Shown here: positions 1 to 25,790 of the stretch, piece after piece
Layout: every line of letters begins with the position of its first letter
Position numbering within the stretch: position 1 is the stretch's first letter
DNA from: Bryobacteraceae bacterium
GTDB lineage: Bacteria > Acidobacteriota > Terriglobia > Bryobacterales > Bryobacteraceae
Reading direction: 5' to 3'
Length of the DNA: 37,015 nucleotides
Assembly: GCA_030041035.1 (NCBI GenBank)
Contig: JASHOO010000079.1
Coordinates: forward strand, 1 to 37,015
Translations under genes and position numbers: made by a program
The notes under the pieces: generated by a model
The model's database searches: none
What the model saw: the letters and a program-made list of their open reading frames with translations, nothing else
What the model was told of the DNA's origin: nothing

Positions 1-241
1 GGATTCTTCGCTGAGCAAAGAATTCCATCTGTCCGAACAACGTTATTTCCAGTTCCGCTGGGAAATGTTTAACTCATTGAATCACATGAATCTGGGCCTG
101 CCCAACACGAACTGGTGCCTGCCGCCTTTAGCCAACGGCTCGACGAATCTCGTGAACCAATCCGGATGTTCATTCGGGCTCATAACGAACATCGCGACCG
201 ACCCGAGGCGGATGGAGTTTACCTTGAAGTTCTATTGGTAG
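1..241 (+). CDS. TonB-dependent receptor (Oar-like), C-terminal fragment
   Basis: Open from the left edge in the frame starting at base 2, ending at TAG 239-241, giving about 79 residues. It contains FQFRWEMFNSLNHMNLGLPN, a segment with FGLITN, and ends DPRRMEFTLKFYW. This pattern (RxExFNxxNHxNxGxPNT, FGxIT, DPRxxxFxLKxxF) is the usual last-strand region of the large acidobacterial Oar-like TonB-dependent receptors, whose terminal aromatic residue is the outer-membrane sorting signal. The protein would be an outer-membrane beta-barrel importing a bulky substrate or binding matrix. The remainder lies outside the window. It converges on the amidohydrolase gene, so a functional link to the neighbouring catabolic genes is only suggested by position. 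Confidence 0.75.
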   Translation, partial: DSSLSKEFHLSEQRYFQFRWEMFNSLNHMNLGLPNTNWCLPPLANGSTNLVNQSGCSFGLITNIATDPRRMEFTLKFYW

Positions 242-338
242 GAGGGGCAAGCCGTGCGGTCGGTCGCTGCGCGTAATTCCGTGAAAGGGTTAGACATTAA
301 GCGAGTGTGCATTGCCGTGATCCCCGTGCTATTTGCCA

Positions 339-1517
339 TCACCTTATGGCGCGGAATACTTCCATATCGGAATCGTACAGGTCGCGGAGGTGTATCTTGG
401 CACTGCCCGGAAGATGCACTTGCCCCCTTTTGATGACTAAAGTGGGAACGATTCTTCTACTCCCGCGGCGCACTGCCAAATGAGTGTCGGTAAAGGGAAA
501 ATCGCCCGTCTCGACGTCGAAGACCAGGATATCGGCTCGCGCCCCTGATGCCAGCGTTCCAATCTCGCGTTCTCGGTGCAGCACCCGTGCCGGAATCGCA
601 GTGGTCTTCCGGACGGCATCCTCCAGGCTCATCCCGATACACAACATCTTCGACATTACCTGCGGAAGCGTGACGCAAAGAGGATCGCACACGCTGTACC
701 GATGAAGGTCAGTACTGATCGTATCAGGATAGAAATGGTGTTCGAAGGCGCGGCGCGCTGAATCCCATGAGAAACTCCCGCAGCCATGACCCACGTCGAA
801 GAAAACTCCGCGCTGCCGGGCTTGGCTGACTTCGGGAACGACAGTTTCCGCTATCATCCCGTTGCCTCTCCCGTGGAAGCAGTGAGTTAGGATGTCGCCG
901 GGGCGGAGCCGGCGGAGGATTGCCCGCTCGTCGGCACCGCCGCTGATGTGCACCATGAGGGGAACTGCTGCCGCGTTAGCGGCTGCGAGAGCCGCGTCCA
1001 GGGCGGCCATTCCGTGATTTGCCGTCATGCTCCCAACGCGCAGTTTCACGCCGATCGCACGATCCGGATGTCTCGCAATCACTTCGGCGGTCTCCTGCGG
1101 CCGGGCATACCGCAGGTCGATCAGTTCTTCGGCGTAGGGCGCGTGGAGCCCCATGAAAGAGATGTGAATGAATGCGAAGACGTCCGCGAGACAGTGGTCA
1201 ATTGTGGTACGCCGGAATTCGGGGAAATTCGCATAGCCGGTGCTGCCCGCATCCACCGCGGTGGTAACGCCGTGATCGAGACAAAGAAGCGGGTCTATGC
1301 CATAGAGGTTCCCCTCATACCAATGGCCATGAAGATCGATAAGGCCGGGGCATACGTACTTGCCGGAGATTTGGCGAACATCCGGACAGTTGGCAGAGTC
1401 GAGGTTGGCCCCGACTTGTGCCACGCGGCCATCCTGGACTCCAACGTCTGCCACCGCATGGAGCGATTGAGAGGGATCGATTACGGTTCCGCCGGCGAGC
1501 AACAGGTCAAACGCCAT
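339..1517 (-). CDS. COG3964-type amidohydrolase / deacetylase
   Basis: Metal-dependent amidohydrolase-fold hydrolase of 392 aa. Visible features: beta-sandwich N-terminus (LLLAGGTVIDPSQ); HxH metal ligands in GLIDLHGH (His63, His65); candidate carboxylated Lys158 in GVKLRVGS; further ligands His190 (LMVHISGG) and His212 (THCFHGRG); a late TDLHRYS Asp. The open frame runs further upstream, but ATG 1517 has a GGGAG Shine-Dalgarno (1524-1528) at 6-nt spacing and opens the fold correctly. It overlaps the upstream dehydrogenase gene by 11 bp, so the two are co-transcribed. Characterised relatives (Atu3266, Bb3285) cleave N-acetyl-D-amino acids or acetyl-mandelate, and the EF_0837 subgroup travels with SelA-like enzymes as here. 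An N-acetyl-aldonate (an N-acetyl-D-amino acid chemically) is my preferred substrate. A dihydroorotase or allantoinase role is less likely. Confidence 0.85.
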   Translation of the reverse strand: MAFDLLLAGGTVIDPSQSLHAVADVGVQDGRVAQVGANLDSANCPDVRQISGKYVCPGLIDLHGHWYEGNLYGIDPLLCLDHGVTTAVDAGSTGYANFPEFRRTTIDHCLADVFAFIHISFMGLHAPYAEELIDLRYARPQETAEVIARHPDRAIGVKLRVGSMTANHGMAALDAALAAANAAAVPLMVHISGGADERAILRRLRPGDILTHCFHGRGNGMIAETVVPEVSQARQRGVFFDVGHGCGSFSWDSARRAFEHHFYPDTISTDLHRYSVCDPLCVTLPQVMSKMLCIGMSLEDAVRKTTAIPARVLHREREIGTLASGARADILVFDVETGDFPFTDTHLAVRRGSRRIVPTLVIKRGQVHLPGSAKIHLRDLYDSDMEVFRAIR

Positions 1518-2517
1518 CCACATCTCCCAGTTCCACGGCGTGAGCTGTAGCTGCGGCCTGGTAATAAGCCATGATGACTCGCAGCGACTGTGTGCTGTCC
1601 TCTGCCGAAGGCCAGGGGACGCGGCCTTCCATGATAGCGGCACAAAACTCGCTGATTTCTCCTGCGATGCCGGTCCGTACCTTAGCGCGGTGCGGCTCAT
1701 CTGTGTAGAAGACCTTTTGCTGATGGCCGGTTTCGTTCCATATTTCGTAGCCGCGCCAGGTGTGGACGATGACGCTGCCGCGCGTGCCGATCACCTGCAG
1801 ATCACAGAGCAACGGGTGCGGCTCACGCATGAAAGCGACGGTGACCTGCGCGGAGATTCCACTGCGGAATCGCAGGAACATCTGTCCGGCGTCCTCGACG
1901 TCGGCGCCGAAGTACTTATTCGAGGCGCATCCAGCTACCATACTTACTTCATTAGCCGTAAACCAGCGGAGCCGGTCGACGAGATGAATGCCGGAGGTGA
2001 GAGCAGGGCCGCCACCGGCGAACTTTTTTTCCACGTACCAGGGGGGAGTGTTCAGAAATCCCACATGCTCCAAAGCGCAATCATTGCAAGCCACGATATT
2101 GCCGATAGCACCATCGTCCACAAGCTTCTTGGCTTCGCGGAGTTCGGGGTAGAAGCGGTGTGTCATTCCCACGTAAAGCACACGCCGTGCCGTCCTGGCG
2201 GCACGCAGCATGCACCGCGCTTCCTCCAGGCTCACGGCGATTGGCTTTTCCACGAGAACATGAATGCCGCGCGCTAACGCATTGACAGCAACCTCGCAAT
2301 GCAGATGGGTTGGCAGGCAGATACTAACAGCCTCGACGCCACTTTCGAAAAGCTCTTCATATGTACTGCATGCTTGGACACCGGGAGGCAGATCAACGAG
2401 GTTTTCCGGCCTTGACTCGGCGATTGCGGCTAACTGCGCGAGCGGTTCCGCCACATACGCTTGCGCGTGGATCTTCCCCGTGTAGCCGTAGCCGATCACA
2501 CCGACCCGGAGCGGCAT
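1507..2517 (-). CDS. Gfo/Idh/MocA family NAD(P)-dependent oxidoreductase
   Basis: Cytosolic sugar or polyol dehydrogenase of 336 aa from ATG 2517. The Rossmann motif GVIGYGYTGKIHA is at the start, followed by the family's VEKPIAVS motif, whose Lys is the usual catalytic residue, and a GG-rich segment before the C-terminal beta-sheet domain (GGGPALTSGIHLVDRLRW). The frame opens at ATG 2568, but ATG 2517 starts right at the fold (MPLRVGVIGYG) and has GGAGG at 2529-2533 (11-nt spacing). The longer form adds 17 residues without homology. It is the first gene of a two-gene operon with the overlapping amidohydrolase. Context suggests oxidation of a sugar at C1 to its lactone. Myo-inositol-type or other C3 oxidation cannot be excluded from sequence alone. 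Confidence 0.85.
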   Translation of the reverse strand: MPLRVGVIGYGYTGKIHAQAYVAEPLAQLAAIAESRPENLVDLPPGVQACSTYEELFESGVEAVSICLPTHLHCEVAVNALARGIHVLVEKPIAVSLEEARCMLRAARTARRVLYVGMTHRFYPELREAKKLVDDGAIGNIVACNDCALEHVGFLNTPPWYVEKKFAGGGPALTSGIHLVDRLRWFTANEVSMVAGCASNKYFGADVEDAGQMFLRFRSGISAQVTVAFMREPHPLLCDLQVIGTRGSVIVHTWRGYEIWNETGHQQKVFYTDEPHRAKVRTGIAGEISEFCAAIMEGRVPWPSAEDSTQSLRVIMAYYQAAATAHAVELGDVDGV

Positions 2518-2568
2518 CAGCGGCTTGACCTCCGCGCCAGGCACTGCAGCGCCATCGAAAAGTTCCAT

Positions 2569-2686
2569 GGGTACAGGAAGTATGCAACAAAAAGAGGTGC
2601 CATAGTTGCGGGAGCAATTGTATTATATGGAAATTCAGGTCGCGACCACACAGCCAACGGAGGCCATTTCCCAGCGCGAGTGAAGC
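2569..2686. promoter_or_regulatory. divergent promoter region with perfect palindrome
   Basis: This gap separates the minus-strand dehydrogenase operon from the plus-strand lactonase operon. On the minus strand TATAAT (reverse of 2622-2627) is a perfect -10 match, though no good -35 lies 17 bp upstream. Just upstream of it is a perfect 10-bp palindrome, GGTCGCGACC, at 2638-2647. Its position next to a -10 and between divergent operons fits an operator for a shared regulator, but no regulator gene is in the window. Promoter assignment is by eye only. Confidence 0.35.
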
Positions 2687-3628
2687 ATGCCGATCATCAC
2701 AGTCACGGGGCCGATTCCATCTTCTGAAGCGGGCTGCACTCTTTCGCACGAACACGTGTTGTGTGACCTGTGGTCGTTCGTCAGGAGCTACGACGGCATC
2801 TTGGACGACGAATCCCTTGCCATCAGGGAGCTAGCCCATTACCGTGATGCCGGAGGCTCGACCCTGATTGACGCAACCAGCGTTGGGTTGGGCCGAAATC
2901 CGATGGCCCTGCGCCGTGTATCAGAAGCCACTGGCATTCGGATTGTCATGGGCTCCGGATGGTACCGTGAGTGCGTCTACCCAGCCGCGGTTTGGGAACG
3001 CGATACGAACGCGCTGGCAGATATGATCGTGAACGATTTGGTCCACGGCGCCGATGGCACCGACGTTCGCGCAGGCATCATTGGGGAGATCGGCACCGAG
3101 AGAAAGCACATCACGCCAGCCCAGGAGAGGGTGTTCCGGGCAGCGGCCCGGGCGCAGCAGCGTACCGGCGCATGCATCATGACCCACACCACGCACTTTG
3201 GCGAACTGGCCATTGAACAGATCGCACTTCTCCGTGAGGAGCGTGTACCGGCGGAGCGGATTGTAATCAGCCATCTGGGCGACCGGCATGACCCGGGGCC
3301 GGTGCGGAGAATTGCGGAGCAGGGCGTTTTTCTCAGTATTGACAACATCGGCTACGTCGGCAACGGTTACCCGCCGGACGATGTGCGCACGCGCAGCGTC
3401 TGCCTGCTCGTCGCCGAAGGTCACCTGGCGCAGATAGTGCTGGGCGGCGACATCTGCCAGAAGAGTCATCTTGCTGCCTTCGGCGGCAAAGGTTACGCAC
3501 ATGTGCAACGTTGTTTTGTGCCACTGCTCCGCGCGCAGGGTGTGAACGAGGACGCCATTCATCAGATGACTGTTGTAAATCCCGCGCGCATGCTGGACAT
3601 CCCAGAAAACACTAAGGACCGGATCTAA
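2687..3628 (+). CDS. phosphotriesterase-homology family hydrolase, probable lactonase
   Basis: Protein of 313 aa with the phosphotriesterase-family binuclear metal site: HEH at residues 21-23, His167 (MTHTTH), His196 (VISHLGDR) and Asp255 (LGGDICQK). The bridging position reads GEIGTE, so Glu134 probably replaces the carbamylated lysine of true phosphotriesterases. That substitution is seen in the PHP/lactonase branch (E. coli PHP) and fits sugar-lactone rather than organophosphate hydrolysis. An in-frame TGA at 2681 makes ATG 2687 the first possible start; the Shine-Dalgarno is weak. It is followed one base later by the PLP-enzyme gene, so they form an operon. Inferred role: opening the aldonolactone made by the divergent dehydrogenase. 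Confidence 0.85.
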   Translation: MPIITVTGPIPSSEAGCTLSHEHVLCDLWSFVRSYDGILDDESLAIRELAHYRDAGGSTLIDATSVGLGRNPMALRRVSEATGIRIVMGSGWYRECVYPAAVWERDTNALADMIVNDLVHGADGTDVRAGIIGEIGTERKHITPAQERVFRAAARAQQRTGACIMTHTTHFGELAIEQIALLREERVPAERIVISHLGDRHDPGPVRRIAEQGVFLSIDNIGYVGNGYPPDDVRTRSVCLLVAEGHLAQIVLGGDICQKSHLAAFGGKGYAHVQRCFVPLLRAQGVNEDAIHQMTVVNPARMLDIPENTKDRI

Positions 3629-3629
3629 G

Positions 3630-4817
3630 GTGCACGTATACGAAAAACTCGGCGTACGGAGGCTCATCAACGGTCGCAGTTTCAGCACCAAGGCCGGTGG
3701 TTGTGCTTTGCCCCGAGAAGTGCTGGACGCCATGCGGGAGGCAGGCGAATACTGCGTACGGATGGACGAACTGCAGGCGGCTGCGAGCGAAGTCATCGCC
3801 CGTGCGACCGGCGCCGAAGCCGGTATTGTAACCAGTGGTGCGTCGGCGGCCCTGACTTTGGGAGCGGCGGCCTGCCTGGCGCGTCTCGACGTCAACCGTA
3901 TGAACCAGTTGCCTGATACGACCGGCATGCCGAACGAGTTCGTTACACATCGGGTGCATCGCAATGACTACGACCACGCCGTGCGGCTGGCAGGTGCAAA
4001 ATTTGTTGAGGTCGGCTTCAGCTATTACACATTCAGTTACGAGGTGGAATCGGCGATCACTGCTCGAACGGCGGCGCTGTACTACGAGGCAGGAGCGAAT
4101 CACGGCGTGCTGCCGCTGGAAAAGTATGCCGCAATTGCTCACCGCCATGGGCTTCCGGTGCTGGTGGACGCTGCGCCGGAGATGCCCCCGGCCTCCAATC
4201 TGCGGTCCTTCGTGGCGGCCGGCGCGGACCTGGTTGCCTTTAGCGGCGGCAAGCACCTCCAAGGTCCTCAGGCGACCGGGATCCTTTGCGGCCGGCGTGA
4301 TCTCATCCTTTCTGCGACGTTGCAGCATCAGGATATGGACGTATTTCCGGAAACCTGGCCCTTGCGCTCTCTGGTCGAAAGCGGAACCGTTCTAGGTCCT
4401 CCACATCACGGGATAGGGCGGGGGTTCAAGGTTGGAAAGGAGGAAATCGCTGGTCTAGTGACCGCACTCGAGTTGTATCAGGGGCGCGATTTTGCGGCTG
4501 AGCGGGCACGCTGGACCGCCGATATGGAATGCGTGGTAGCCGGAGTTCGCGATCTGCCGGGGATTTCGGCGCATGTGCAATATCCGCAGCCGAACGGCCG
4601 CGAGGTGCCAAGCGCCCTGGTGAGAATCGATTCCGCCATGGCCGGAACCAATGCCCACGCCGTAATCAATGCGTTGCAGGCAGGAGAACCACCCATATGG
4701 GTCTTTGAGAAGTTTGCGAGGTCCGGGGAAATTGTGGTTTTTCCGGAAGCCTTGCGGCCCGGCGAAGCGGCTACGATTGCACGCCGGCTTCGCGAAGCTC
4801 TCCAAGCCGAGCGCTAA
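3630..4817 (+). CDS. SelA-like PLP enzyme, probable amino-acid-sugar ammonia-lyase
   Basis: Protein of 395 aa from a GTG start one base after the TAA of the lactonase gene. It is a fold-type I PLP enzyme of the SelA-related group: early glycine-rich VTSGASAAL (cofactor phosphate region), Asp180 in LVDAAPE (pyridine nitrogen), and Schiff-base Lys208 in FSGGKHLQGP, followed by GILCGRRDLI. Relatives include DgaE, the D-glucosaminate-6-phosphate ammonia-lyase, and the selA_rel family that neighbours EF_0837-type amidohydrolases. It lacks the N-terminal domain of true selenocysteine synthase, and no selenocysteine genes are near. Expected reaction: removal of ammonia from a 2-amino-2-deoxy-aldonate to give a 2-keto-3-deoxy-aldonate. 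The exact sugar and whether it is phosphorylated are unknown. Confidence 0.8.
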   Translation: MHVYEKLGVRRLINGRSFSTKAGGCALPREVLDAMREAGEYCVRMDELQAAASEVIARATGAEAGIVTSGASAALTLGAAACLARLDVNRMNQLPDTTGMPNEFVTHRVHRNDYDHAVRLAGAKFVEVGFSYYTFSYEVESAITARTAALYYEAGANHGVLPLEKYAAIAHRHGLPVLVDAAPEMPPASNLRSFVAAGADLVAFSGGKHLQGPQATGILCGRRDLILSATLQHQDMDVFPETWPLRSLVESGTVLGPPHHGIGRGFKVGKEEIAGLVTALELYQGRDFAAERARWTADMECVVAGVRDLPGISAHVQYPQPNGREVPSALVRIDSAMAGTNAHAVINALQAGEPPIWVFEKFARSGEIVVFPEALRPGEAATIARRLREALQAER

Positions 4818-4883
4818 GCTGGGGCATCGCCACCTTCATAGCCACTCTCTTTATATACGCACAGCAAGAACGAGGACAAATAG

Positions 4884-6230
4884 CTATGAAATCTGCATTC
4901 GTCCCTTTCGCCAGCTCGGGTCCTTCCACTTGCCGTCAGTGAAATCAGGCATATCAACACGAGCGCCACCCCGGTCGAGTGACAACTTGGAGCAAAAAAT
5001 GATCGAGCTCCAAGTCGCTGCGTCGAAAACATCGATCCAGGGTTCCTGGTCCTCACGGAGCATCTTCACAAAGTCGGAGATGCAGTGGTAGTCGATGCCT
5101 CCGTGCCCGCCAGTCCGCCGAGCGGCGGCGCCATTCTCGCGCCAGTACGGGTGCTGGTACGTCGGCTCATATTTCGCCAGTGGTTCCCACGCCCCCTCCG
5201 CACCACTCTTCCCTGGGCTGGAGTCCTCGAGGAAAACTCCCGACCGTGAATCCCAGCACCCTTTGGTCCCTTGCAAGAGATAATACCGCGAGTAAGGTCG
5301 AGTGCAACAGATGCTGTAATCGAGGCGAATCATCCGCCCTTTAGCTGTGGAAATTAGGCTCGTCACGAAGTCGCCTTGCTTAAATTGAATCCGGGCCTGT
5401 TCGCTGCCAGGCCCGAACTGAGTCACGGTACGAAGGTGGGATTCGTGACCACCCGATGCCATCATCGTTTGGCAGGACTCCAGACGGTCGCCGTCGTTAA
5501 TCTGCAGCCATTTACAATTCGAGCCCAAGCCGTGCTGCGGGTACGTGCTGCCATAACGGTCCCGCTGCAGCTCGCCGCGCCAAGTGATCTTTCCGCCGGG
5601 ATCGAAGAATAACGACCGGCAATCATGGACGTAGCTGCCTTCGGCATAATACGGTTCTCCAAATACGCCATGATTAATCATGTTATAGATCATCATGTTC
5701 TCGTTGCCGTAACAGCAGTTTTCAAGAAACATGACGTGCTTACCGCTTTTTTGTTTTTCGCGAACCATTCCCCAGCACTCTTCTTCGGTCTGAGGGCCAG
5801 CCACTTCGAGAGCCGCGTGTTTACCGGCGCGGAGGGCGTCGACAGTCATACGACCCAGCCAATAGACCGGGGTAGCGATCAAGACGGCGTCCAAATCATC
5901 TCGCTGGCACAAGTTGCGGTAGTCATATTCGCCCTTCGCATAGCCAGCGGGGGTGGTGCCGCGCATCTCTTTGACTATCTGGACAGCCGCATCCAGGTGG
6001 TCTTCCTGGATATCGCAAATAGCGACTACTGTAACGTCTGGGTGGTTGGTGAGGAGATTTCGGACGTGCCATTGGCCACGAGGTCCCACGCCAATGACAC
6101 CTATACGGATAAGCTGTGAAGGCCTATCTTGGCCGCGGGTCAGAGGAGCAGCCAAACTCGCAGCAGCAGCTCCCACCAACCCCTGCTGGAGAAAACGCCG
6201 CCGGTCTAGATTGCGACTTTCGTCGATCAT
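4884..6230 (-). CDS. Tat-exported GH109-type (Gfo/Idh/MocA-fold) glycosidase
   Basis: Protein of 448 aa with a twin-arginine signal (LDRRRFLQQG, residues 8-17, then an alanine-rich stretch to about 33), so it is exported folded with its NAD. Rossmann GVIGVGPRGQ is at 44-53. The EKP of ordinary dehydrogenases is replaced by LEVAGP. GH109 hallmarks follow: ENCCYGNENMM (170-180), GEPYYAEGSYVHD, YPQHGLG (230-236), INDGDR, and near the C-terminus DVFDAATWSSII and MPDFTDGKW. GH109 enzymes are NAD-dependent alpha-N-acetylgalactosaminidases of about this length. ATG 6230 is chosen because AGGAG (6238-6242) lies 7 nt upstream; an in-frame TTG at 6236 is too close to it. It converges on the SelA-like gene. 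Substrate is inferred, and an exported dehydrogenase role remains possible. Confidence 0.75.
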   Translation of the reverse strand: MIDESRNLDRRRFLQQGLVGAAAASLAAPLTRGQDRPSQLIRIGVIGVGPRGQWHVRNLLTNHPDVTVVAICDIQEDHLDAAVQIVKEMRGTTPAGYAKGEYDYRNLCQRDDLDAVLIATPVYWLGRMTVDALRAGKHAALEVAGPQTEEECWGMVREKQKSGKHVMFLENCCYGNENMMIYNMINHGVFGEPYYAEGSYVHDCRSLFFDPGGKITWRGELQRDRYGSTYPQHGLGSNCKWLQINDGDRLESCQTMMASGGHESHLRTVTQFGPGSEQARIQFKQGDFVTSLISTAKGRMIRLDYSICCTRPYSRYYLLQGTKGCWDSRSGVFLEDSSPGKSGAEGAWEPLAKYEPTYQHPYWRENGAAARRTGGHGGIDYHCISDFVKMLREDQEPWIDVFDAATWSSIIFCSKLSLDRGGARVDMPDFTDGKWKDPSWRKGRMQIS

Positions 6231-6528
6231 ACTCAAACTCCTATGATGTTTTGTCTACTACAACCTGGTTCGCGTCTTTTCGCAAGGCGAAGAAACTGCA
6301 CTGCATCTGGATCCCGTATGGAGCACCCGGATGAAGCCCGCGCTGGCGACCTCCGCATCCGGCGGGGAAGCGACCTCGGCCGCTGTTGCTGCCTGCCGCT
6401 TCCCGGATTTTAATCCAAAACCCGTCGCAGACCTAAGGGTAATTGATCGCAAGACCAGACAGTTATGGAGGCGCCGCGGCAGTCAACTTAGCGCAATCTC
6501 CCGTCGAGCGATTGAGTTCAGGGGGGAG

Positions 6529-6556
6529 CGAGGTTCAAGCCCTCTCATCAACACCA
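6529..6556 (+). other. tRNA 3'-end-like remnant (T-arm plus CCA)
   Basis: The bases fit tRNA positions 49-76: a T-stem GAGG/CCTC (4 of 5 pairs) around a TTCAAGC T-loop, then seven acceptor bases CATCAAC, discriminator A and an encoded CCA (6554-6556). No matching 5' acceptor (GTTGATG), D-arm or anticodon arm is present in the 90 bases upstream, so this is not a complete tRNA. It resembles the 3' end of bacterial tRNA-Leu. Such orphan 3' ends are left at attachment sites of integrated elements, but could also be chance. Confidence 0.3.
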
Positions 6557-6778
6557 CATCTTTAGGACATAAACTTCCAGAGGCAAAGACAGAAAACCAA
6601 AGCTAGAAATGCGAGGAGTAGAAGTTCAGGCTCATAGCGTATCAGGCAGAGTAAGATGTTCCGATCCAATGGGCAAGCGCCGGGCATCGAAGTATCGGTT
6701 GATTATGTTGGTGGAATCCGCAAGGGCTCAAGATGTTTTTGGTTAGCCGCGGGTTATTACCGATAAAGGATATCTAGC

Positions 6779-6798
6779 GACAGATTCGGCAATCTGTC
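6779..6798 (-). terminator. hairpin downstream of TPR gene
   Basis: Perfect 8-bp stem GACAGATT/AATCTGTC with a 4-nt loop, starting 16 bases past the stop codon of the minus-strand TPR gene. There is no clear U-run after it on the minus strand, so intrinsic termination is likely but not certain. Alternatively it stabilises the 3' end. Confidence 0.5.
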
Positions 6799-6813
6799 AA
6801 TAAATTCAATGGG

Positions 6814-8433
6814 TTAGGTTGAATTGCTGAAATAGCCTTTCGCCAGATCCGGCTTCAGGGCCAGGGCTTTCTGCCAGTTAGCGCGGGCTTCTTCGGGCTG
6901 ACCGAGGGCTTCGAGGGCAATACCCAGATTGAGCAGGGCTTCAGCAAATTCGGGCGAGTCGGTGATGGCTTGGCGATAAAGCTGGGCTGCTTGATCGTAC
7001 TGGCCGGATTTCTGGCGCAGCAACGCGGCGTTGTAGAGGAACTCGGGAGCCCGTTCGCCGCTCTCGATCAGCTTGATATGCAGGTCGAGGGCTTCGTCAT
7101 TGCGGCCGCGTTCGAGGGCGATGGCAGCCAGGGCACGAGAAGCCTCCGTGAATTCCGGCTTCACCGCCAGGCAACGCTGGAACGCATCCTGTGCGGCGTC
7201 GAGTTCTCCCAATTTCCAATAGGCAATTCCGGCGTTCAGCAGGGCTTCCGGCCAGTCCTTGCGCTTCCACAGGCAGGCATCGAAGGCTTCGGAGGCGCCG
7301 CGGAAATCGCCCAGTTCCAGGCGCAGGCAACCCAGGCGAAAGCGGGCGTCTTCAGCCTCGGGCGAGCGATCGAGCAAGCGCGTGTACAGCTTTTCCGCTT
7401 CGGCCGCATTTTCGTCCTGCTCGAGAGCGAGCGCCAGGTTCCAGAGTGCGGTGGTGGAATCGGGATTGAGCTCGAGCGCGCGCCGGTAAGACTCGCGGGC
7501 CTTAGCACGATCGCCCCCTTCCTGATAAGCAACCCCCATGTTGAGCTGCAATTCGGCATCGTTCGGGCGCAATCGCAAAGCCTCGCCATAGGCCTTGGCA
7601 GCCTCGGGACGGCCGGCTTTTTCGAGCGCTACGCCGAGGTTGAACCAGCCCTCGAAGGCATCGGGCGCGACCTTAACCAGTGCCGCGCAGTGCGCCGCCG
7701 CCTTTTCGTAGTCCTGAACGGCAAAGGCCGCTGCGGCCAGCCCTTCATGCGCCACGCGGGAGTCCGGCCGGATTTTCAGGAGTTGCTCCGCACGATGCGC
7801 GGCACCGGCGTGGTCCTTCAATTCCAGGTGGGCGGCAATGGCGTTGGAGAGCGCCTCTTCCGACCGTGGATTCTGTTCGAGGACGCGATTGTAAAGTTCG
7901 GCAGCCTCGGCGAATTTTTTCAGAAGCTGGAGCGCCACGGCTTTTCCAAACAGAATCGGCTCAAGCCGCGCAGTCTCGAGATTCGGCATGAGCCGGAGGC
8001 AGCGCTCATAAGCTTCGAGAGCCGGGCGGGCGGCGCCCATATGCAGCCGGCTCAGGCCCAGGCCCAGGTGTGCCTCGTAACGGTTGGGATCCGCGGCCAG
8101 AGCTTTTTCAAACAGCGCCCCTGCCTCGTCCCATTTACCCAATGCTTGTAGTGCGGCAGCCAGATTGAACCATGCAGCGCCATTGGAAGGGTCAAGCGCC
8201 ACCAACTTCCGGTAAGCCTCAGCCGACGATTCAAATTGCTTACGCTCGTAATGCAGGTATCCGGCGGCGGCGTAAAGTTCGGCGTGCTGCTCACCCGCCG
8301 TGAGTGCCTGCTCGATCTGCTCCAGAGCCTCTTGCGGCTTGCCTGCCAGATGCAGGGCCACGGCGCGTCCATAGAGTTCACTCGCCGCAGCCTTGGGTGG
8401 CTCGGCAGGTTTGGCAGTTCCCTTCGACTTCAC
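6814..8433 (-). CDS. cytosolic tetratricopeptide repeat protein
   Basis: Protein of 539 aa made almost entirely of TPR units, about 14 of them, recognisable by recurring phrases such as AAWFNLAAALQALGKWDEA, FEGWFNLGVALEKAG and AEALLNLGIALEALGQPEEA with a 34-residue period. There is a short charged N-terminus (KSKGTAKPAEPPK) and no signal peptide or membrane segment, so it probably acts as a cytoplasmic protein-protein scaffold. The start is GTG 8433; no in-frame ATG precedes it and the Shine-Dalgarno is weak. It lies 56 bp downstream of the zinc-finger/LamG-like gene on the same strand, possibly co-transcribed. No catalytic domain is visible and no specific partner can be named. Confidence 0.8.
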   Translation of the reverse strand: MKSKGTAKPAEPPKAAASELYGRAVALHLAGKPQEALEQIEQALTAGEQHAELYAAAGYLHYERKQFESSAEAYRKLVALDPSNGAAWFNLAAALQALGKWDEAGALFEKALAADPNRYEAHLGLGLSRLHMGAARPALEAYERCLRLMPNLETARLEPILFGKAVALQLLKKFAEAAELYNRVLEQNPRSEEALSNAIAAHLELKDHAGAAHRAEQLLKIRPDSRVAHEGLAAAAFAVQDYEKAAAHCAALVKVAPDAFEGWFNLGVALEKAGRPEAAKAYGEALRLRPNDAELQLNMGVAYQEGGDRAKARESYRRALELNPDSTTALWNLALALEQDENAAEAEKLYTRLLDRSPEAEDARFRLGCLRLELGDFRGASEAFDACLWKRKDWPEALLNAGIAYWKLGELDAAQDAFQRCLAVKPEFTEASRALAAIALERGRNDEALDLHIKLIESGERAPEFLYNAALLRQKSGQYDQAAQLYRQAITDSPEFAEALLNLGIALEALGQPEEARANWQKALALKPDLAKGYFSNST

Positions 8434-8489: not shown

Positions 8490-10526
8490 TCAGTTGTGCT
8501 TTCCGGGAACGAGATAGGCACAGATGCGGCCCCATGCATCATCCTGGTAGGCCACATCTACCCAACGAATGTAAGCCGTTTCACCGGGATCGGCAAAGAA
8601 TCCGAAACCGCCGCGGGCGAGCGACGTGTCGCTCCAGGTATCGATGACGTGGCCGTCTAGATACGTTGTGAACTGATCGCCGCGAATTTCCTGCCGCACA
8701 CGGAACATGGACTTGGCGGTTGCGGTTATTGGCAGAGGCAATTGGATACGCAACCGCTCGCGGCCATCGATCACCGCATATCGAACGATCGAGTAGGCAG
8801 TAACCGCGTCACGCTTGGATTCGACCAGTTTGCATGCATAGTAGTTCCGCGCGTCAGTCGCACGAAAGACCCAAGCGACGGCTTTCCTGTCGATCTCAGC
8901 CAGAAACTCGAGGTGGTAATCAGACAGTGGCGCCGAGTCCGCGAGCAGCGCCAAGCGGCCAGGGCGGGCGAAGCCGGTCGCATCGTAAGTCCAGGTATTG
9001 GACCAGCCCGGCGGACCGGTCCATTGGCTCAGGCCGGCGCGGAAATCGTCCTGGATGTCGATGGCGGCACGCCGTTGGATGTGCGCCACCAGTTCGGTGT
9101 TGGCCTTCTGCATGGCAGGGGAGGATTTCAAGTAGACGTAGCTTGAAAGCGCGAGTGCGGCCAACACAACAACTGCAGCGACTTGGCGGACCCAAAGGGG
9201 GACGGCCGACCAACGCGCGGTGAGCTTTTTCCAGAGGCTGGGAAGCGGCTCCGGTTCGCGAGGCAGGCTCAATGCGACGGGCAACGGGTCCTCAAAACGA
9301 GGCCGGACCGGGATGACCCGCGCGTGCGGCCCCAGGCGCACGCGGAATTTCCAGACCAGCGTCCCGGCACTGTTCCGCACCGGCGCCGGAGCCGCTTTGG
9401 GCGGGGGTACCTTCACGGGCACGGGTGGACCGAAGCCCAGCGCGGGCGCAGGACGGCCAAAGCACCGCGGACCGATCTGCGGCTGCGGGGGCGATACCAA
9501 ACAGCGCCGTGTGCCGGACATCGAGGCTAGCGGGCGACGGCGCGCACGCGGTGCGGAGGCAGGCATCCAAGGGCAGGCAGTAAAACCAGGGGTAACTGGC
9601 GCGAGGGCGATGTTGGGACCGCTCAAAACTTCCACAGGAGTTCGGCATGTGGAACGCGGCGCCTTCCAAGCCGGCGCGGCGGGCCCCCGGACCCGCGGCA
9701 GGACAGCCACAGGCCCCGCGAAACCGAAGATCTTGGGGGTGTGCGGTGCCAGGGCAGCCGCGGGCATGCCCAGTGAACTTCGGGGGAATGGCCAAGGGCT
9801 CGCAGGGTTCTCTTGCATGGGTGAGGTCAGTGCGAAGGCGCTAACTGCCGGCCGGCTGGTGGGCGCCAAAGTCAGCCTTACTGTGCCCGGTTTGACATCC
9901 GGTTGCACGAGAGTGGGGATGGAACAGAACCGAACAACGGCCGGACTTGAGGCTACCTGGTGCGCGGCGCCCGCCGAGACAGGCTTGAGAGAGACGAAAT
10001 CGGCGGTGGGCCGCTGGGATGGGGCTTGTTTCGTGACCTCGATCCAGAGCGGTTGAGCAGCCCATTCGCGCAATATGGGTTGCTCCATGGCGAACGATGC
10101 CGGATTCATCAGGACGGATCTGGCGTGTGAAGCTGCTGCCTGAGCTCTGCATACAGTATGGGCAGCGGGGGAAAGCGGAACAGCAGGCGCCGACAAGCAG
10201 GCAGCCGCCGGCAACACGGTATACCAGAGCGGGGACACCGGCTGCGCGTTCGAGCGTGGAACACCACTGCGGCATTGGGGCGTCACAAGCTCCCGCCGGA
10301 AATCCGCCAGCACCGGGATGGGCTGCGGGTTGGCAGGAGCGGCGGGCCGTGGGTCGGGTGGGGCTGAATCTGGCTCGGATCGGCGCGGCTTGTTCTGGCG
10401 TAGGAAGTCTACGGCAAGTTCTTCCTGCTTTTTCTGGTAAGCTTTCCGGTGCGCCGCTGAGCAGAACTCCTCATCTTGCAGCTTGCGCAAGGCGCTGATT
10501 TTCTTGCCGCAGTGGAGACACTCCAT
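8490..10526 (-). CDS. zinc-finger / proline-rich / membrane / LamG-like protein
   Basis: Protein of 678 aa with unusual layout. Residues 1-30 form a small treble-clef-like zinc site (CLHCGKK, then EEFCSAAHRKAY). About residues 45-440 are low-complexity, rich in Pro and Ala. One transmembrane helix (VRQVAAVVVLAALALSSYVY) lies near residue 460. The C-terminal ~190 residues look like a LamG/DUF1080-type beta-sandwich (DDFRAGLSQW, LEFLAEI, VAWVFRATDARNYYACKL, TYLDGHVIDTW, GGFGFF). Topology would place the zinc finger and Pro-rich part in the cytosol and the lectin-like domain outside. Proteins of this design occur in Solibacter-type acidobacteria. Function is unknown; carbohydrate binding or envelope sensing is a guess. 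ATG 10526 begins directly at the zinc site. Confidence 0.75.
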   Translation of the reverse strand: MECLHCGKKISALRKLQDEEFCSAAHRKAYQKKQEELAVDFLRQNKPRRSEPDSAPPDPRPAAPANPQPIPVLADFRRELVTPQCRSGVPRSNAQPVSPLWYTVLPAAACLSAPAVPLSPAAHTVCRAQAAASHARSVLMNPASFAMEQPILREWAAQPLWIEVTKQAPSQRPTADFVSLKPVSAGAAHQVASSPAVVRFCSIPTLVQPDVKPGTVRLTLAPTSRPAVSAFALTSPMQENPASPWPFPRSSLGMPAAALAPHTPKIFGFAGPVAVLPRVRGPAAPAWKAPRSTCRTPVEVLSGPNIALAPVTPGFTACPWMPASAPRARRRPLASMSGTRRCLVSPPQPQIGPRCFGRPAPALGFGPPVPVKVPPPKAAPAPVRNSAGTLVWKFRVRLGPHARVIPVRPRFEDPLPVALSLPREPEPLPSLWKKLTARWSAVPLWVRQVAAVVVLAALALSSYVYLKSSPAMQKANTELVAHIQRRAAIDIQDDFRAGLSQWTGPPGWSNTWTYDATGFARPGRLALLADSAPLSDYHLEFLAEIDRKAVAWVFRATDARNYYACKLVESKRDAVTAYSIVRYAVIDGRERLRIQLPLPITATAKSMFRVRQEIRGDQFTTYLDGHVIDTWSDTSLARGGFGFFADPGETAYIRWVDVAYQDDAWGRICAYLVPGKHN

Positions 10527-22163: not shown

Positions 22164-22892
22164 TCAACGCTCGATCAGCCTGCCGGCCGGCTCGTCAAGA
22201 AACCACTCCACTCCCTCAGCCTCGCGCAGACCGAGTTGCGCAGGGTATTTCAGGGGATCGTACGGCTCCTGGAACACCGCTCGCACCGCAGTTGCTTTGT
22301 CCTCTCCGGCCACCAGCATGGCGGTGTGACGCGCCGCCAGCAGCACTCCCGGAAGTAGGGTGATGCGCCATTGCGAAAGCTTTTCCACCCGAACAGGCGC
22401 CGCAATCTTTTGCCGGTCGGCGATCAGCGGTTCGCCGGGAAACAGGCTGGCGGTGTGCGCCTCGGCGCCCATGCCCCGATGGATCACGTCAAATCGCGGC
22501 AACTCATCCGGCCGGACCTTAAAGAAGCTGCCGATTTCTTCTACATACATGTCCGCGGCCGTCCTTGGATCAAGCTCGGCGTGAATGCGGTGCACCTGCT
22601 CCGGCGGAATGGCGGCGGGCAAGAGCAGCGCCCCGTTCGCCAGTCTGTAGTTGCTCTGGTTGTTGTCCGGCGGTACCGGCCGCTCATCCACCCAGAAAAA
22701 ATGAATCCCCTTCCACTGGAACTTGGAAGCCGCCATCCGCTCAAACATCAGCTTCGGTGAGGTGCCGCCCGACAAGGCAATCGTCGCCTGGCCCCGCTCC
22801 GCCCGCGCCTCTTCCAGCACGCCCAGAATATATTTCGCACACGCCTGCGCGGCCGCCGGCGGATCGGCAAAAATGTGGCGTTGTACGCTCAC
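22164..22892 (-). CDS. pgl: 6-phosphogluconolactonase
   Basis: Protein of 242 aa, typical DevB/Pgl length. It hydrolyses 6-phosphogluconolactone to 6-phosphogluconate, the second step of the oxidative pentose phosphate pathway. Family motifs: TIALSGGTSPKLMFE (phosphate-binding loop) and the WVDERPVPPDNNQSNY active-site segment; a later HRGMGAEAHTASLFPG carries the usual GxGxDGHTASLFPG motif with some changes. GTG 22892 overlaps the opcA stop (GTGA), so it is translationally coupled as the third gene of zwf-opcA-pgl. Confidence 0.93.
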   Translation of the reverse strand: MSVQRHIFADPPAAAQACAKYILGVLEEARAERGQATIALSGGTSPKLMFERMAASKFQWKGIHFFWVDERPVPPDNNQSNYRLANGALLLPAAIPPEQVHRIHAELDPRTAADMYVEEIGSFFKVRPDELPRFDVIHRGMGAEAHTASLFPGEPLIADRQKIAAPVRVEKLSQWRITLLPGVLLAARHTAMLVAGEDKATAVRAVFQEPYDPLKYPAQLGLREAEGVEWFLDEPAGRLIER

Positions 22893-23905
22893 TGCCGCTC
22901 CGCAGCCAGCCTCCCGGCACGCGCCAGGCTCTTCTCGTAGACCGCATCGCGCCCCGGAATCGACAGCTCCTCGCGTAGAAGCTCATAATCATTGTCCGGC
23001 GGAAACACGGCATGACTTGCGAGCGTATCGATTTGTACCTCCGCAAACTGCTGCGCCCGATCTCCGGAAACGAAGATGGCGACGTGCAATCCGCCTTCCA
23101 CCGGCCCTGTCAACTCGAGACGCGAAATCTGCCCCGCCCCTACATCCGGCGCCGCCTGCCACTTCACATGCGGATGGGCACCAGCGCTCTCCAGACACTC
23201 TGATATCCACGCCGCCAGATAATACGCGCCCGTCGGCGGAAAAGTTCCCCCGTACGTGACCGCCACCTGCGTTAGTTCCGGCAGTCGCGCCAGGTAACTA
23301 CGGCTCTCGAAAATCTGCGAGATCAGCTCCCGCACGCGCGTCAGCCGCGTCCACGCCAGATCGCCGGCTACTTTCCCGGTACGCTGAATTTGTGCCAGAA
23401 TCGCCGCCGGATCTGGAAATGCTGATGAATCCAGCAACAGCTTGTGCGCAATCCGGGCGATTTGGGGGAACTCCGGCAATCCGAACAATCGCGCGCTGCG
23501 GCACCAGACCATCACCGGCAGATCAGCGACCGCCAGAGGAAGCACCACCGGGGCCAGATCGGGCAGGCTGGCATCCGACGCACTGATCTCGATCTGTTCG
23601 CAGCAGATCTGCCGGCGATGCCCAAACGGCATCCAACATTGCGAGAATACGCGCGACGCCAGCTCTCGCATACCCGAGGGATGGAAGCGAATGACGATCG
23701 CACGGCTGGGATGCTCGGGCATCAGCGCTGCCATCGTGGACCACACGTCGCTCGGGTCTTCCGATTCCTCCACCAGCGTGATCAGCGTCATGGTGCACGC
23801 TCGCAGCACGCCCGATGAATGCGCCGGATCCGATTCCTTACCCAGCGTCACCCAAAGCTCCGCCAATTCCCGCAGCACGCGCTCGGGTTGGATCGTCGTG
23901 CTCAC
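22889..23905 (-). CDS. opcA: glucose-6-phosphate dehydrogenase assembly protein OpcA
   Basis: Protein of 338 aa. OpcA binds and redox-regulates glucose-6-phosphate dehydrogenase in cyanobacteria and actinobacteria. Recognised by SSGVLRACTMTLITLVEE near the N-terminus, MPEHPSRAIVIRF, the CCEQIEI segment and LPVMVWCRSARLF. The first ATG (23917) lies inside zwf. GTG 23905 is preferred because GGAG (23912-23915), part of that ATGGAG, lies 6 nt upstream, and GTG overlaps the zwf stop as GTGA. Order zwf-opcA-pgl is the classical arrangement. Two adjacent cysteines (CCEQ) are present, but whether they serve thioredoxin control is unknown. Confidence 0.88.
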   Translation of the reverse strand: MSTTIQPERVLRELAELWVTLGKESDPAHSSGVLRACTMTLITLVEESEDPSDVWSTMAALMPEHPSRAIVIRFHPSGMRELASRVFSQCWMPFGHRRQICCEQIEISASDASLPDLAPVVLPLAVADLPVMVWCRSARLFGLPEFPQIARIAHKLLLDSSAFPDPAAILAQIQRTGKVAGDLAWTRLTRVRELISQIFESRSYLARLPELTQVAVTYGGTFPPTGAYYLAAWISECLESAGAHPHVKWQAAPDVGAGQISRLELTGPVEGGLHVAIFVSGDRAQQFAEVQIDTLASHAVFPPDNDYELLREELSIPGRDAVYEKSLARAGRLAAERQ

Positions 23906-25422
23906 GGCGTTCTCCATGTGTGCCCGCGGCGCGCCAGCATCTCATCGGCCGCCTTCGGGCCCCACGTTCCGGCGTCGTAGTTGGGAAAATCGAACTTCTG
24001 GTTCTGCCAAACGTTCAGGATGGGCTCCACTGCCCCCCAGCTCGCCTCCACCATGTCCTGCCGCGTGTACAGCGTCGCGTCGCCGATCATCGCATCCAGC
24101 AGCAGCGTTTCGTATGCCGTGGGCGACCGCTCGCCGAAGCTCGTTCCGTAATTGAAATCCATCGATACCGGCCGCAGCTTCATCCCCGCACCCGGCCGTT
24201 TCGACAGAAACCGCAGCGAGATCCCCTCCTCCGGCTGGATGCGCAGGATGAGAAGGTTCGGCGTGGACCCGTCATCGTTACCGCCAAACACCGCATGCGG
24301 CGCCTCGTTGAACTGAATGGCGATTTCGGTCACTCGCTTGGGCAGCCGCTTACCCGTGCGAATGTAAAACGGCACGCCCGCCCAGCGCCAGTTGTCCACA
24401 AAGAACGTTGCCGCCGCGTAGGTGTCCGTCTGCGACTGCCCATCCACTCCCTTCTCCTGCCGGAATCCGGGAACGTCTGCTCCGCCGATCCGCGCCGGTC
24501 CATACTGCCCCGACACCGAATTCGCAAGAACCTCATCCGGCTTCATCACTCGCACCGTGCGCAGCAGCTTGGCGCGCTCGTCGCGCACCGCATCCGGCTG
24601 AAATGTGGCGCTCGGCTCCATGGCAATCGTCGCCATGATCTGCAGCAGGTGGTTTTGAATCATGTCGCGCAGTGCGCCGGCTTCCTGATAATATCCGCCG
24701 CGCCCTTCCACACCGATCGATTCTGCCGCCGTGATCTGCACGCTGTTCACATACCGCCGGTCCCACAGCGGCTCAAAAATGCCGTTTCCGAACCGGAACG
24801 CCAGGATGTTCTGCACCGTCTCCTTACCCAGGTAGTGATCGATGCGATACACATCGGATTCGCGGAACACCTCGTGCAGGTTGCCGCTCAGCTCGCGCGC
24901 GCTCTCCAGGTCGTGCCCGAACGGCTTTTCAATGACAATCCGCCGCCACCCGTTGCCCGCCGCCAGGCCCGCCGCACCGATACCCTTGGCCGCCGCTGCA
25001 TACTGGCTGGGCTGCGTCGATAGATAAAACAGCACGTTGCCCGCCGTGTGGCGGCATTCTTCAATCCCGTTCAGGTGGGACGCCAGATTCGAGAACGCCC
25101 CCGAATCGCCGATGTCTCCCGCCATGTAGTAGAGCCCCTGCGCGAAGCCGGACCACACCTCTTCATCGAACGGCGAGTCCTCCAGGAACTTCGCGACAGA
25201 CTCACGCATGCTCGCGCGAAACTGATCGTCGGACATCGGCGTGCGCGAAATTCCAACCACCGCAAATCCCGGTGACAACCGCCTCTCATACGCCAGCCGG
25301 TAGAGCGCAGGCAGTAGCTTGCGCTTCGTCAGGTCTCCGTTCGCTCCGAAAATGGCTACCGCGCATTCCGGAATGCGCCGCTCGAAACGCAGAGGATCCT
25401 GAAACGGGTTCGCCGAAGCCAT
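23902..25422 (-). CDS. zwf: glucose-6-phosphate 1-dehydrogenase
   Basis: Protein of 506 aa, normal length. It oxidises glucose-6-phosphate to 6-phosphogluconolactone with NADP+ or NAD+. Motifs: dinucleotide site IFGANGDLTKRKLLPAL (about 24-40), IVIEKPFGHD (162-171) and the active-site peptide RIDHYLGKETVQN (193-205) with the catalytic His. The open frame begins at 25467, but ATG 25422 gives the standard N-terminus and the first 15 residues of the longer form have no family match. It is the first gene of an operon with opcA and pgl, supplying NADPH and pentose phosphates. Confidence 0.95.
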   Translation of the reverse strand: MASANPFQDPLRFERRIPECAVAIFGANGDLTKRKLLPALYRLAYERRLSPGFAVVGISRTPMSDDQFRASMRESVAKFLEDSPFDEEVWSGFAQGLYYMAGDIGDSGAFSNLASHLNGIEECRHTAGNVLFYLSTQPSQYAAAAKGIGAAGLAAGNGWRRIVIEKPFGHDLESARELSGNLHEVFRESDVYRIDHYLGKETVQNILAFRFGNGIFEPLWDRRYVNSVQITAAESIGVEGRGGYYQEAGALRDMIQNHLLQIMATIAMEPSATFQPDAVRDERAKLLRTVRVMKPDEVLANSVSGQYGPARIGGADVPGFRQEKGVDGQSQTDTYAAATFFVDNWRWAGVPFYIRTGKRLPKRVTEIAIQFNEAPHAVFGGNDDGSTPNLLILRIQPEEGISLRFLSKRPGAGMKLRPVSMDFNYGTSFGERSPTAYETLLLDAMIGDATLYTRQDMVEASWGAVEPILNVWQNQKFDFPNYDAGTWGPKAADEMLARRGHTWRTP

Positions 25423-25790
25423 GTTCTTCAGCTTATCGCAAGGCCTGACCGTAGCGCCGCAGAGCACATGTTACGATTCCGTTGCACCCTCTGCGCTCTC
25501 TTCGTCCCCTTCCGGTACACAGTAAACGCCGGCAGCAGTCCTGTGCGTCTTGAAGCGGCGAGCCGGCGTGCCGCGAATCAACCAGCCGGATTTCTTGGCC
25601 GTTCTCGGCGTCTCTGCGTCTCGGCGGTGAAAAGTAGTTTTCCCTTTGGCGCTACCTGCGGATTCAAGCCGCGCGCTTGCGCAGCCATGGCGAACCGAGT
25701 AAGATAATTCTTCCTTCCGAGTTTCTATCGGGTCCAAAGACCAAGCGAGCTTGGAGTATGTCTGCAGAGGAGTTGTTGTAGTCGGATTGT
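25423..25790. other. intergenic region with dispersed repeat
   Basis: About 370 bp between divergent zwf and the receiver gene. It contains the dispersed repeat at 25591-25634. A weak plus-strand promoter guess is TTGCGC (25677-25682), 17 bp, TAAGAT (25700-25705). AGAGGAG near 25764 is too far from ATG 25791 to be its ribosome site. No gene is supported here. Confidence 0.5.
25591..25634 (-). repeat. HRRDAE-type dispersed intergenic repeat
   Basis: Read on the minus strand this is a run of CCGAGACGCAGAGACGCCGAGAA type, with GAGACGC repeated, flanked by TTTTCACCG. The same sequence style is found scattered between genes in many acidobacterial, planctomycete and other genomes, where it is often mis-annotated as short proteins containing HRRDAETQR. 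Only one copy is in this window. The family memory is not verified by search. Confidence 0.45.

Follow-up and report, generated by a model that had tools for sequence, protein, structure and literature searches.

We describe a conserved unit of four linked genes in Acidobacteriota whose enzymes probably break down an N-acetylated amino sugar to acetate, ammonia and a keto-deoxy acid, with oxidation taking the place of phosphorylation. The genes encode a COG3964-type amidohydrolase (DAC), a Gfo/Idh/MocA oxidoreductase (GFO), a phosphotriesterase-family hydrolase (PTE) and a SelA/DgaE-type PLP enzyme (SEL), and were analysed in a soil Bryobacteraceae bacterium in a window of 37,015 nt, which is the entire contig JASHOO010000079.1 of assembly GCA_030041035.1 (positions 1 to 37,015, forward strand). 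All genes that an earlier note on this DNA had named were found in place and had been typed correctly, as judged from profile and structure matches (Table 1); their present annotation is generic (hydrolases, oxidoreductases, selenocysteine-synthase-like proteins). DAC and GFO overlap by 11 bp, SEL begins one base after PTE, and the two pairs run divergently.

Table 1. Positions of the four-gene unit and its neighbours in the window
Feature	Position	Strand	Evidence
TonB-dependent receptor, barrel C-terminus	2..241	+	79 codons, PF25183 50 bits; truncated by contig edge
DAC, COG3964-type amidohydrolase, proposed N-acetyl-hexosaminate deacetylase	339..1517	-	PRK09237 just below cut-off, 8je0/2ogj, metal ligands
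GFO, Gfo/Idh/MocA NAD(P) oxidoreductase, proposed 1-dehydrogenase	1507..2568	-	PF01408, PF22725, PF02894, EKP motif
Putative operator, 25-nt block GAGCAATTGTATTATATGGAAATTC	2612..2636		divergent promoter; identical in L055
PTE, phosphotriesterase-family hydrolase, proposed lactonase	2687..3628	+	PF02126, metal ligands
SEL, SelA/DgaE-type PLP enzyme, proposed 2-amino-2-deoxy-hexonate ammonia-lyase	3630..4817	+	DgaE model, 8t7j/7lc0
GH109-type Tat-exported glycosidase (predicted), neighbour outside conserved unit	4884..6236	-	PF21252, 2IXA/6T2B

None of these enzymes reaches a substrate-defining cut-off among the curated NCBIfam models. DAC falls narrowly short of PRK09237 (360 (359.8) bits, cut-off 371) and matches PDB entries 8je0 and 2ogj, its match to D-aminoacylases being limited to the first ~100 residues. 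The metal ligands H63, H65, K158, H190, H212 and D270, assigned as the HxH, Lys, His, His, Asp set from the alignment with 2ogj, are kept in 9/9 entries of at least 50% identity, three duplicated stretches among them. GFO combines a Rossmann fold with a C-terminal domain (PF01408, PF22725 and PF02894, all above cut-off) and carries an EKP motif at residue 107; it reaches no NCBIfam equivalog, with a UDP-GlcNAc 3-dehydrogenase model as top match (141 bits, cut-off 450), and its proposed link to C1 oxidation is at the level of the family. PTE (PF02126, 244 bits) retains the bridging E134 together with H21, H23, H167, H196 and D255 in 12/12 entries of at least 55% identity, some of which are duplicate stretches; the earlier note had pointed out this Glu-bridged site. 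Its fold and Glu-bridged metal site are those of PTE-family lactonases (PHP, phospho-furanose lactonase; PF02126), whereas its scores stay below every curated equivalog cut-off; the lactonase role is a prediction.

SEL, which we take to be of fold type I, is a SelA/aminotransferase-V-like protein with PDB matches 8t7j and 7lc0 and a score of 219 (218.8) bits against the NCBIfam DgaE model, far under the equivalog cut-off of 600. Compared at reference residues taken from PMC9529869, SEL shares with its relative DGL (PDB 7lc0, 7lce; PMC9529869), whose substrate is phosphorylated, the PLP family, the PLP lysine (21/21 core-clade sequences) and the carboxylate arginine (19/21). In contrast to DGL, the phosphate-binding Arg301/332/346 are all replaced (0/21 at each position), His162/His163, described as strictly conserved (PMC9529869), fall in a gap in 21/21 sequences, and the SEL alignment shows an insertion of about 28 residues. 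The lack of phosphate-binding arginines supports the reading that the substrate is unphosphorylated. In the wider SEL clade these arginines are mostly lost too, and the neighbours there, creatininase and, by visual assignment, MlrC-like and dipeptidase-like proteins, have no obvious link to amino sugars. A deacetylase gene adjoining a SelA-like gene is also the arrangement of EF_0837-type cassettes, which are COG3964 plus SelA-like gene pairs; such pairs exist in the Acidobacteriota loci L037, L048-L050 and L053, but they differ from the window in having neither PTE nor GFO, and their SEL is 30-40% identical to that of the window.

The divergent DAC-GFO / PTE-SEL arrangement occurs in four loci, namely the window, L055, L057 and L059, and L056 carries GFO-PTE-SEL. 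Rearranged versions are the compact operon PTE-SEL-DAC-MFS of L206, whose MFS protein is nearest to a D-galactonate transporter model (183 bits, below cut-off), the single-stranded order PTE-SEL-c499-c15-DAC of L182, and PTE-DAC in L185; PTE-SEL pairing persists in more distant relatives. With PTE alone as query, 4/299 class genomes gave a close PTE, and all 4 belong to the 25 genomes in which SEL is encoded (hypergeometric 3.9e-5; 4.6e-4 when the genome of the window is left out; relatedness uncorrected). GFO is absent from the examined stretches of L035, L061, L062, L182 and L206, and since several of these loci are otherwise similar, it may not be obligatory. The check for conserved co-occurrence that the earlier note had called for thus shows that, of its five genes, DAC, GFO, PTE and SEL do recur together as a linked unit in other Acidobacteriota genomes, but GH109 does not.

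The 25-nt block in the divergent promoter of the window aligns with TTGTAt/gATGATATTG sites of L056, L057 and L059. In L057 and L059 this putative operator is common to the promoters of the divergon, the TonB receptor and GntR; in L056 it is present at the divergon. In a leave-one-out test the L055/window site was not recovered, pointing to a weaker, diverged site in that branch. The TTGTAgTATGATAtT site is a candidate for GntR binding.

The GH109 protein is a good member of its family (PF21252, 120 bits, cut-off 27; PF01408, 34 bits, likewise above cut-off). It matches the solved alpha-N-acetylgalactosaminidase 2IXA at 4e-68, as well as 6T2B, shares the 2IXA motifs ENxCY, WR, YPxHG and RPY, which lie around the NAD/sugar pocket, and has a Tat motif, RRRFLQ, at residue 12. 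Its proposed membership of the amino-sugar unit did not hold. None of 80 related loci has a GH109 match, the 298 other genomes of the class lack a close orthologue, and its promoter has no significant operator (motif score 6.4, top score of shuffled sequences about 13), so that the conserved unit is left with four members.

TonB receptors flank L055, L057, L059 and L060, and the partial receptor recognized earlier beside the gene group of the window is weakly similar to those of L057 (31%, 7e-5) and L060 (0.003). The relatives' loci further contain a GntR regulator and EamA transporters, and Acidobacteriota loci also a DUF4838 protein and other TIM-barrel-like proteins. The recurrent neighbours c42 and c499 match no Pfam family above cut-off and are, by their look, putative TIM-barrel glycosidases. 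The rare secreted protein c15, seen in 1/299 class genomes and there in the same related locus, carries a GH20b domain. A first structural model, at pLDDT 59, allowed no firm conclusion; the predicted fold of the model remade with 10 sequences (mean pLDDT 67) matches GH84 and GH20 N-acetylglucosaminidases (Foldseek 3e-15, about 12% identity). In L100 (Chloroflexota), an OngB-family D-aminoacylase lies beside SEL-PTE.

With this in mind, we consider it somewhat more probable than not that the unit is a conserved module that breaks down an N-acetylated 2-amino sugar without phosphorylation, for which we infer the substrate, the C1 oxidation and the order of reactions. N-acetylhexosamine would be supplied by outer-membrane TonB receptors together with secreted hexosaminidases, which are GH84/GH20-like in relatives and may be GH109 here; GFO would oxidise it at C1 to the lactone; some relatives may import lactone or acid instead. 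PTE would open the lactone to N-acetyl-hexosaminate, DAC would remove acetate, and SEL would use PLP to eliminate the C3 hydroxyl and release ammonia, and the resulting 2-keto-3-deoxy-hexonate would be processed by a general kinase and a KDPG aldolase encoded elsewhere in the genome. The pathway suggested by the earlier note is partly supported: the linked unit, the loss of phosphate arginines in SEL, the secreted GlcNAcase-like proteins of relatives and the KDPG aldolase genes of the genome speak for it, and GH109 drops out. As for the kinase or aldolase sought nearby, the genome has two eda-type KDPG aldolase genes, both away from the locus, and no KDG kinase is linked to the unit in Acidobacteriota, as judged from a PfkB query of the window and the genes listed in related loci. 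Among the KDG-like PfkB kinases checked, the top candidate, on C319, is classed as a tagatose kinase by NCBIfam. The absent kinase counts against the main reading, as do the unreached curated cut-offs, the loci without GFO, the family-level link of GFO to C1, the lost histidines and the wider-clade features of SEL, and the model confidence and identity of c15. Independence from NagA/NagB holds for the locus only: the genome contains NagA-like sequence that stays under the cut-off, and no NagB was called in it, the sole strong PF01182 match being a 6-phosphogluconolactonase near zwf in the window.

Analogous chemistry has been proven for oxidised chitin in the ong pathway of Pseudoalteromonas prydzensis (PMC9537276), where, as proposed here, N-acetyl-hexosaminate is deacetylated before a PLP enzyme eliminates ammonia to yield 2-keto-3-deoxygluconate, and where TonB receptors and a secreted hexosaminidase likewise feed the pathway. 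The ong enzymes differ, however: the deacetylase OngB belongs to the D-aminoacylases of subtype V, and the PLP enzyme OngC has fold type III (PMC9537276). In the window unit, a COG3964 deacetylase and the SelA/DgaE-type SEL stand in their place, a dehydrogenase and a lactonase-like enzyme are added, and no linked counterpart of the KdgK and RidA of ong was found, RidA being judged from ORF listings alone. The two systems are analogous and non-orthologous, in agreement with the earlier view that the enzyme sets differ. An equivalent dehydrogenase/lactonase/deacetylase/lyase pathway had no match in the open-access papers searched; reports in other journals are possible.

Other readings have to be weighed. 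The core might be PTE-SEL-DAC alone, acting on an imported lactone or acid (e.g. N-acetyl-hexosaminate set free by an oxidase or LPMO); GFO would then play a side role, either salvaging free sugar or oxidising a position other than C1, for instance C3. The five loci without GFO, one of them (L206) with a sugar-acid-type MFS protein, and the UDP-GlcNAc 3-dehydrogenase model as best GFO match speak for this, yet GFO is tightly coupled to DAC through the gene overlap and is present in all four complete units and in L056, and we regard this reading as unlikely. It appears quite improbable that the substrate is an N-acyl-D-amino acid or a non-sugar D-2-amino-3-hydroxy acid (derived, e.g., from a modified peptide or from peptidoglycan) whose ester or lactone PTE would cleave: the GH20b/GH84-like, DUF4838 and TIM-barrel-like proteins and TonB receptors of the Acidobacteriota loci are typical of glycan use, even though COG3964 relatives act on N-acetyl-D-amino acids, L100 has a D-aminoacylase-type deacylase, and oligopeptide-type ABC transporters, dipeptidase-like proteins and creatininase neighbour the wider SEL clade. 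That five unrelated single-enzyme genes are chance neighbours would agree with GH109 being unlinked elsewhere, but is refuted for the four-gene core by its recurrent linkage in several genomes, with rearrangements, and by the co-occurrence of PTE and SEL; as a whole it is extremely improbable.

In summary, our analysis favours a catabolic module for N-acetylated 2-amino sugars. More tentatively, it may represent a second, independently assembled oxidative route for free amino sugars in Acidobacteriota, with a Chloroflexota variant, controlled by GntR and fed by a new GH84/GH20-like glycosidase family (c15), which is possible rather than probable. Amino sugars of chitin and peptidoglycan are major soil stores of carbon and nitrogen, and Acidobacteriota are abundant and hard to grow. 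If true, a phosphorylation-free route would escape the usual NagA/NagB annotation, and the module would give a function to a clade of PTE-family lactonases, to a branch of SelA-like PLP enzymes and to a probably new glycosidase family.

All five genes that the earlier note had joined into one oxidative amino-sugar pathway are present with intact reading frames, as is the partial TonB receptor (see table), in the window, which is an entire contig (G000:C620) of a 6.85 Mb genome in 780 contigs. A 118 bp promoter region separates two divergent pairs: DAC-GFO (COG3964-type amidohydrolase, proposed deacetylase; Gfo/Idh/MocA oxidoreductase, proposed 1-dehydrogenase) and PTE-SEL (phosphotriesterase-family hydrolase, proposed lactonase; PLP enzyme, proposed ammonia-lyase). 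While the observation is confirmed, its interpretation is partly supported, namely for the four-gene core and not for the glycosidase gene GH109.

Coordinates of genes in the window and of recurrent neighbour families in related loci (L)
Feature	Location	Strand	Remark
TonB-receptor C-terminus	2-241		truncated at contig edge
DAC	339-1517	-	11 bp overlap with GFO
GFO	1507-2568	-	
PTE	2687-3628	+	one base between PTE and SEL
SEL	3630-4817	+	
GH109	4884-6236	-	convergent with SEL
c15	L057:3090-5471; L061:97-5128; L035:11445-19132; L036:340-8111; L182:13719-16133		
c42	L057:7682-8905; L059:5471-6691		
c499	L059:3975-5474; L182:8271-9764		

Scanning the genome_contigs collection with a SEL alignment gave 80 loci, the best of them from Bryobacteraceae/Solibacteres-type Acidobacteriota, a group to which the host presumably belongs as well. 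The complete divergent unit recurs in L055 (69-77% identity), L057 (65-75%) and L059 (47-66%), and parts of it as GFO-PTE-SEL (L056), PTE-SEL (L061, L062, L035), PTE adjoining DAC (L185) and a single-strand PTE-SEL-c499-c15-DAC order from which GFO is absent (L182). Against bias from looking only around SEL, PTE alone also served as the query for 299 class genomes: four match, all among the 25 with SEL; three of these PTE genes adjoin SEL and the fourth adjoins DAC (co-occurrence probability 3.9e-5, rising to 4.6e-4 when the own genome is left out; neither value is corrected for relatedness). The most diverged of the four, L206, is a compact PTE-SEL-DAC-MFS operon whose transporter comes closest to the model for D-galactonate transporters (183 bits, under the cut-off). 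Of the proposed five-gene co-occurrence the core thus stands, but GH109 was found in none of the 80 loci and has no close orthologue in the other class genomes of the 299-genome set. Gene pairs of COG3964 and SelA-like type are more widespread.

The divergent promoters of L056, L057 and L059 share a putative operator, TTGTAgTATGATAtT, which in L057 and L059 also precedes TonB-receptor and GntR genes; in leave-one-out scans its sites reach scores of up to 24, whereas top scores in Markov-shuffled 37 kb average 13. The corresponding place in the window (2612-2636) and L055 holds an identical 25-nt block, putatively a diverged version of this operator, which the leave-one-out test did not recover. 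In the promoter of GH109 no site reached significance.

DAC retains the metal-ligand set HxH, Lys, His, His, Asp, and PTE retains His/His, the bridging Glu134, His/His and Asp. GFO combines a Rossmann domain, a C-terminal domain and an EKP motif, with no equivalog model matched. GH109 is soundly placed in its family (PF21252, 120 bits) and carries the twin-arginine motif RRRFLQ at residue 12. SEL falls among the SelA/DgaE-type PLP enzymes (DgaE model 219 bits, cut-off 600). By the residue assignments of Phillips and co-workers (PMC9529869), its core clade (21 rows, some being one locus fetched twice) keeps the PLP lysine in 21/21 and the carboxylate arginine Arg226 in 19/21; His162/163 is missing in all 21, and arginines 301, 332 and 346, near which the 6-phosphate was modelled, are retained in none. 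Because these arginines are replaced, the comparison argues for an unphosphorylated substrate, with the qualification that the phosphate was placed by manual docking (PMC9529869) and that the wider SelA-like clade also largely lacks them.

The surroundings of the unit in its relatives suggest an amino sugar as substrate. Six related loci (L035, L057, L059, L061, L062, L182) encode c15, a secreted protein of ~800 residues with a GH20b domain and a conserved LYIHHED motif, frequently in tandem copies and found here only beside PTE-SEL; the L059 copy ends at a contig edge. It is rare, occurring in one of the 299 class genomes, there in a PTE-SEL locus. Its profile matches GH84 and GH20 N-acetylglucosaminidases in the GH20b domain only. 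An AlphaFold model from ten sequences (pTM 0.75, mean pLDDT 67) has GH84 O-GlcNAcases as top Foldseek matches (E ~3e-15; target-normalised TM ~0.53), and the list of matches further includes GH20 hexosaminidases and GH138; c15 is possibly a new glycoside hydrolase family with a predicted GH84/GH20-like fold. A second L182 copy (5614-8090) is spread across two frames, which may reflect a frameshift, a pseudogene or an assembly error. TonB receptors, FCD-type GntR regulators, a DUF4838 protein and split EamA transporters are further recurrent neighbours, as are c42 and c499 (copies of the latter in L059 and L182 65% identical), neither with a Pfam family over cut-off.

In the Chloroflexota locus L100, SEL (49%) and PTE (55%) adjoin a Gfo/Idh gene (26%) and a deacylase of the D-aminoacylase family, which in the PDB matches D-aminoacylase 1M7J best (3e-87) and PpOngB as well (1e-67). 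The set in L067 is similar; its PTE is more distant (32%), and its deacylase shares 40% identity with the L100 one. The deacetylase here looks as if it had been replaced by the family with that role in the ong pathway of oxidised-chitin use. Four other Chloroflexota loci (L070, L077, L091, L098) carry SEL relatives (47-48%) with a PfkB kinase and a KDPG aldolase gene within 5 kb on the opposite strand; a creatininase gene precedes the SEL relative, a Gfo/Idh gene is nearby and three of the four have a sulfatase-like gene.

Elsewhere in the own genome, five more SelA-like PLP genes (L043-L047; contigs C429, C720, C689, C188, C183) are 32-37% identical to SEL. A TonB receptor precedes two of them, and the C720 gene is followed by SIS-like, PfkB kinase and transporter-like genes. 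In L176 (G000:C629) a PfkB kinase overlaps a look-alike, judged by eye, of the GatZ/KbaZ tagatose-bisphosphate aldolase subunit, a pair that suggests a GalNAc/tagatose-type pathway. The window also holds pgl (6-phosphogluconolactonase; the genome's sole strong match to the NagB-type PF01182) and zwf (glucose-6-phosphate dehydrogenase) around a 342-aa ORF (22164-25467, minus strand), and a 678-aa protein (8490-10526, minus strand) with a Cys-containing N-terminus (MECLHCGKKISALRKLQDEEFC) and a long Pro/Ala-rich region, without Pfam or NCBIfam match.

The ong pathway has proven deacetylation of N-acetyl-hexosaminate and ammonia elimination (PMC9537276), two steps shared with the route proposed here, whose dehydrogenase and lactonase-like enzyme are additional. 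Since OngB belongs to the subtype V D-aminoacylases (PMC12017989) and OngC is of fold-type III, unlike SEL, the two sets are analogous, not homologous. In Natrarchaeobius an oxidative route with a homologue of D-glucosaminate-6-phosphate ammonia-lyase is predicted, via glucosamine and a phosphorylated intermediate (PMC12343721).

We propose, as the most economical reading of these genes, that GFO would oxidise C1 of an N-acetylhexosamine (or its lactone), PTE would open the lactone, DAC would release acetate and SEL would eliminate the C3 hydroxyl and release ammonia, yielding a 2-keto-3-deoxy-hexonate. The GFO step is the weakest, because the gene is absent from several loci and no model assigns its substrate. 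For the downstream steps, the genome has two eda-type KDPG aldolase genes at other sites, and no dedicated KDG kinase was identified. The PTE, DAC and SEL steps are chemically coherent and every enzyme family suits its step. GH109, if a pathway member, would supply GalNAc, and the c15 proteins of the relatives point more toward GlcNAc.
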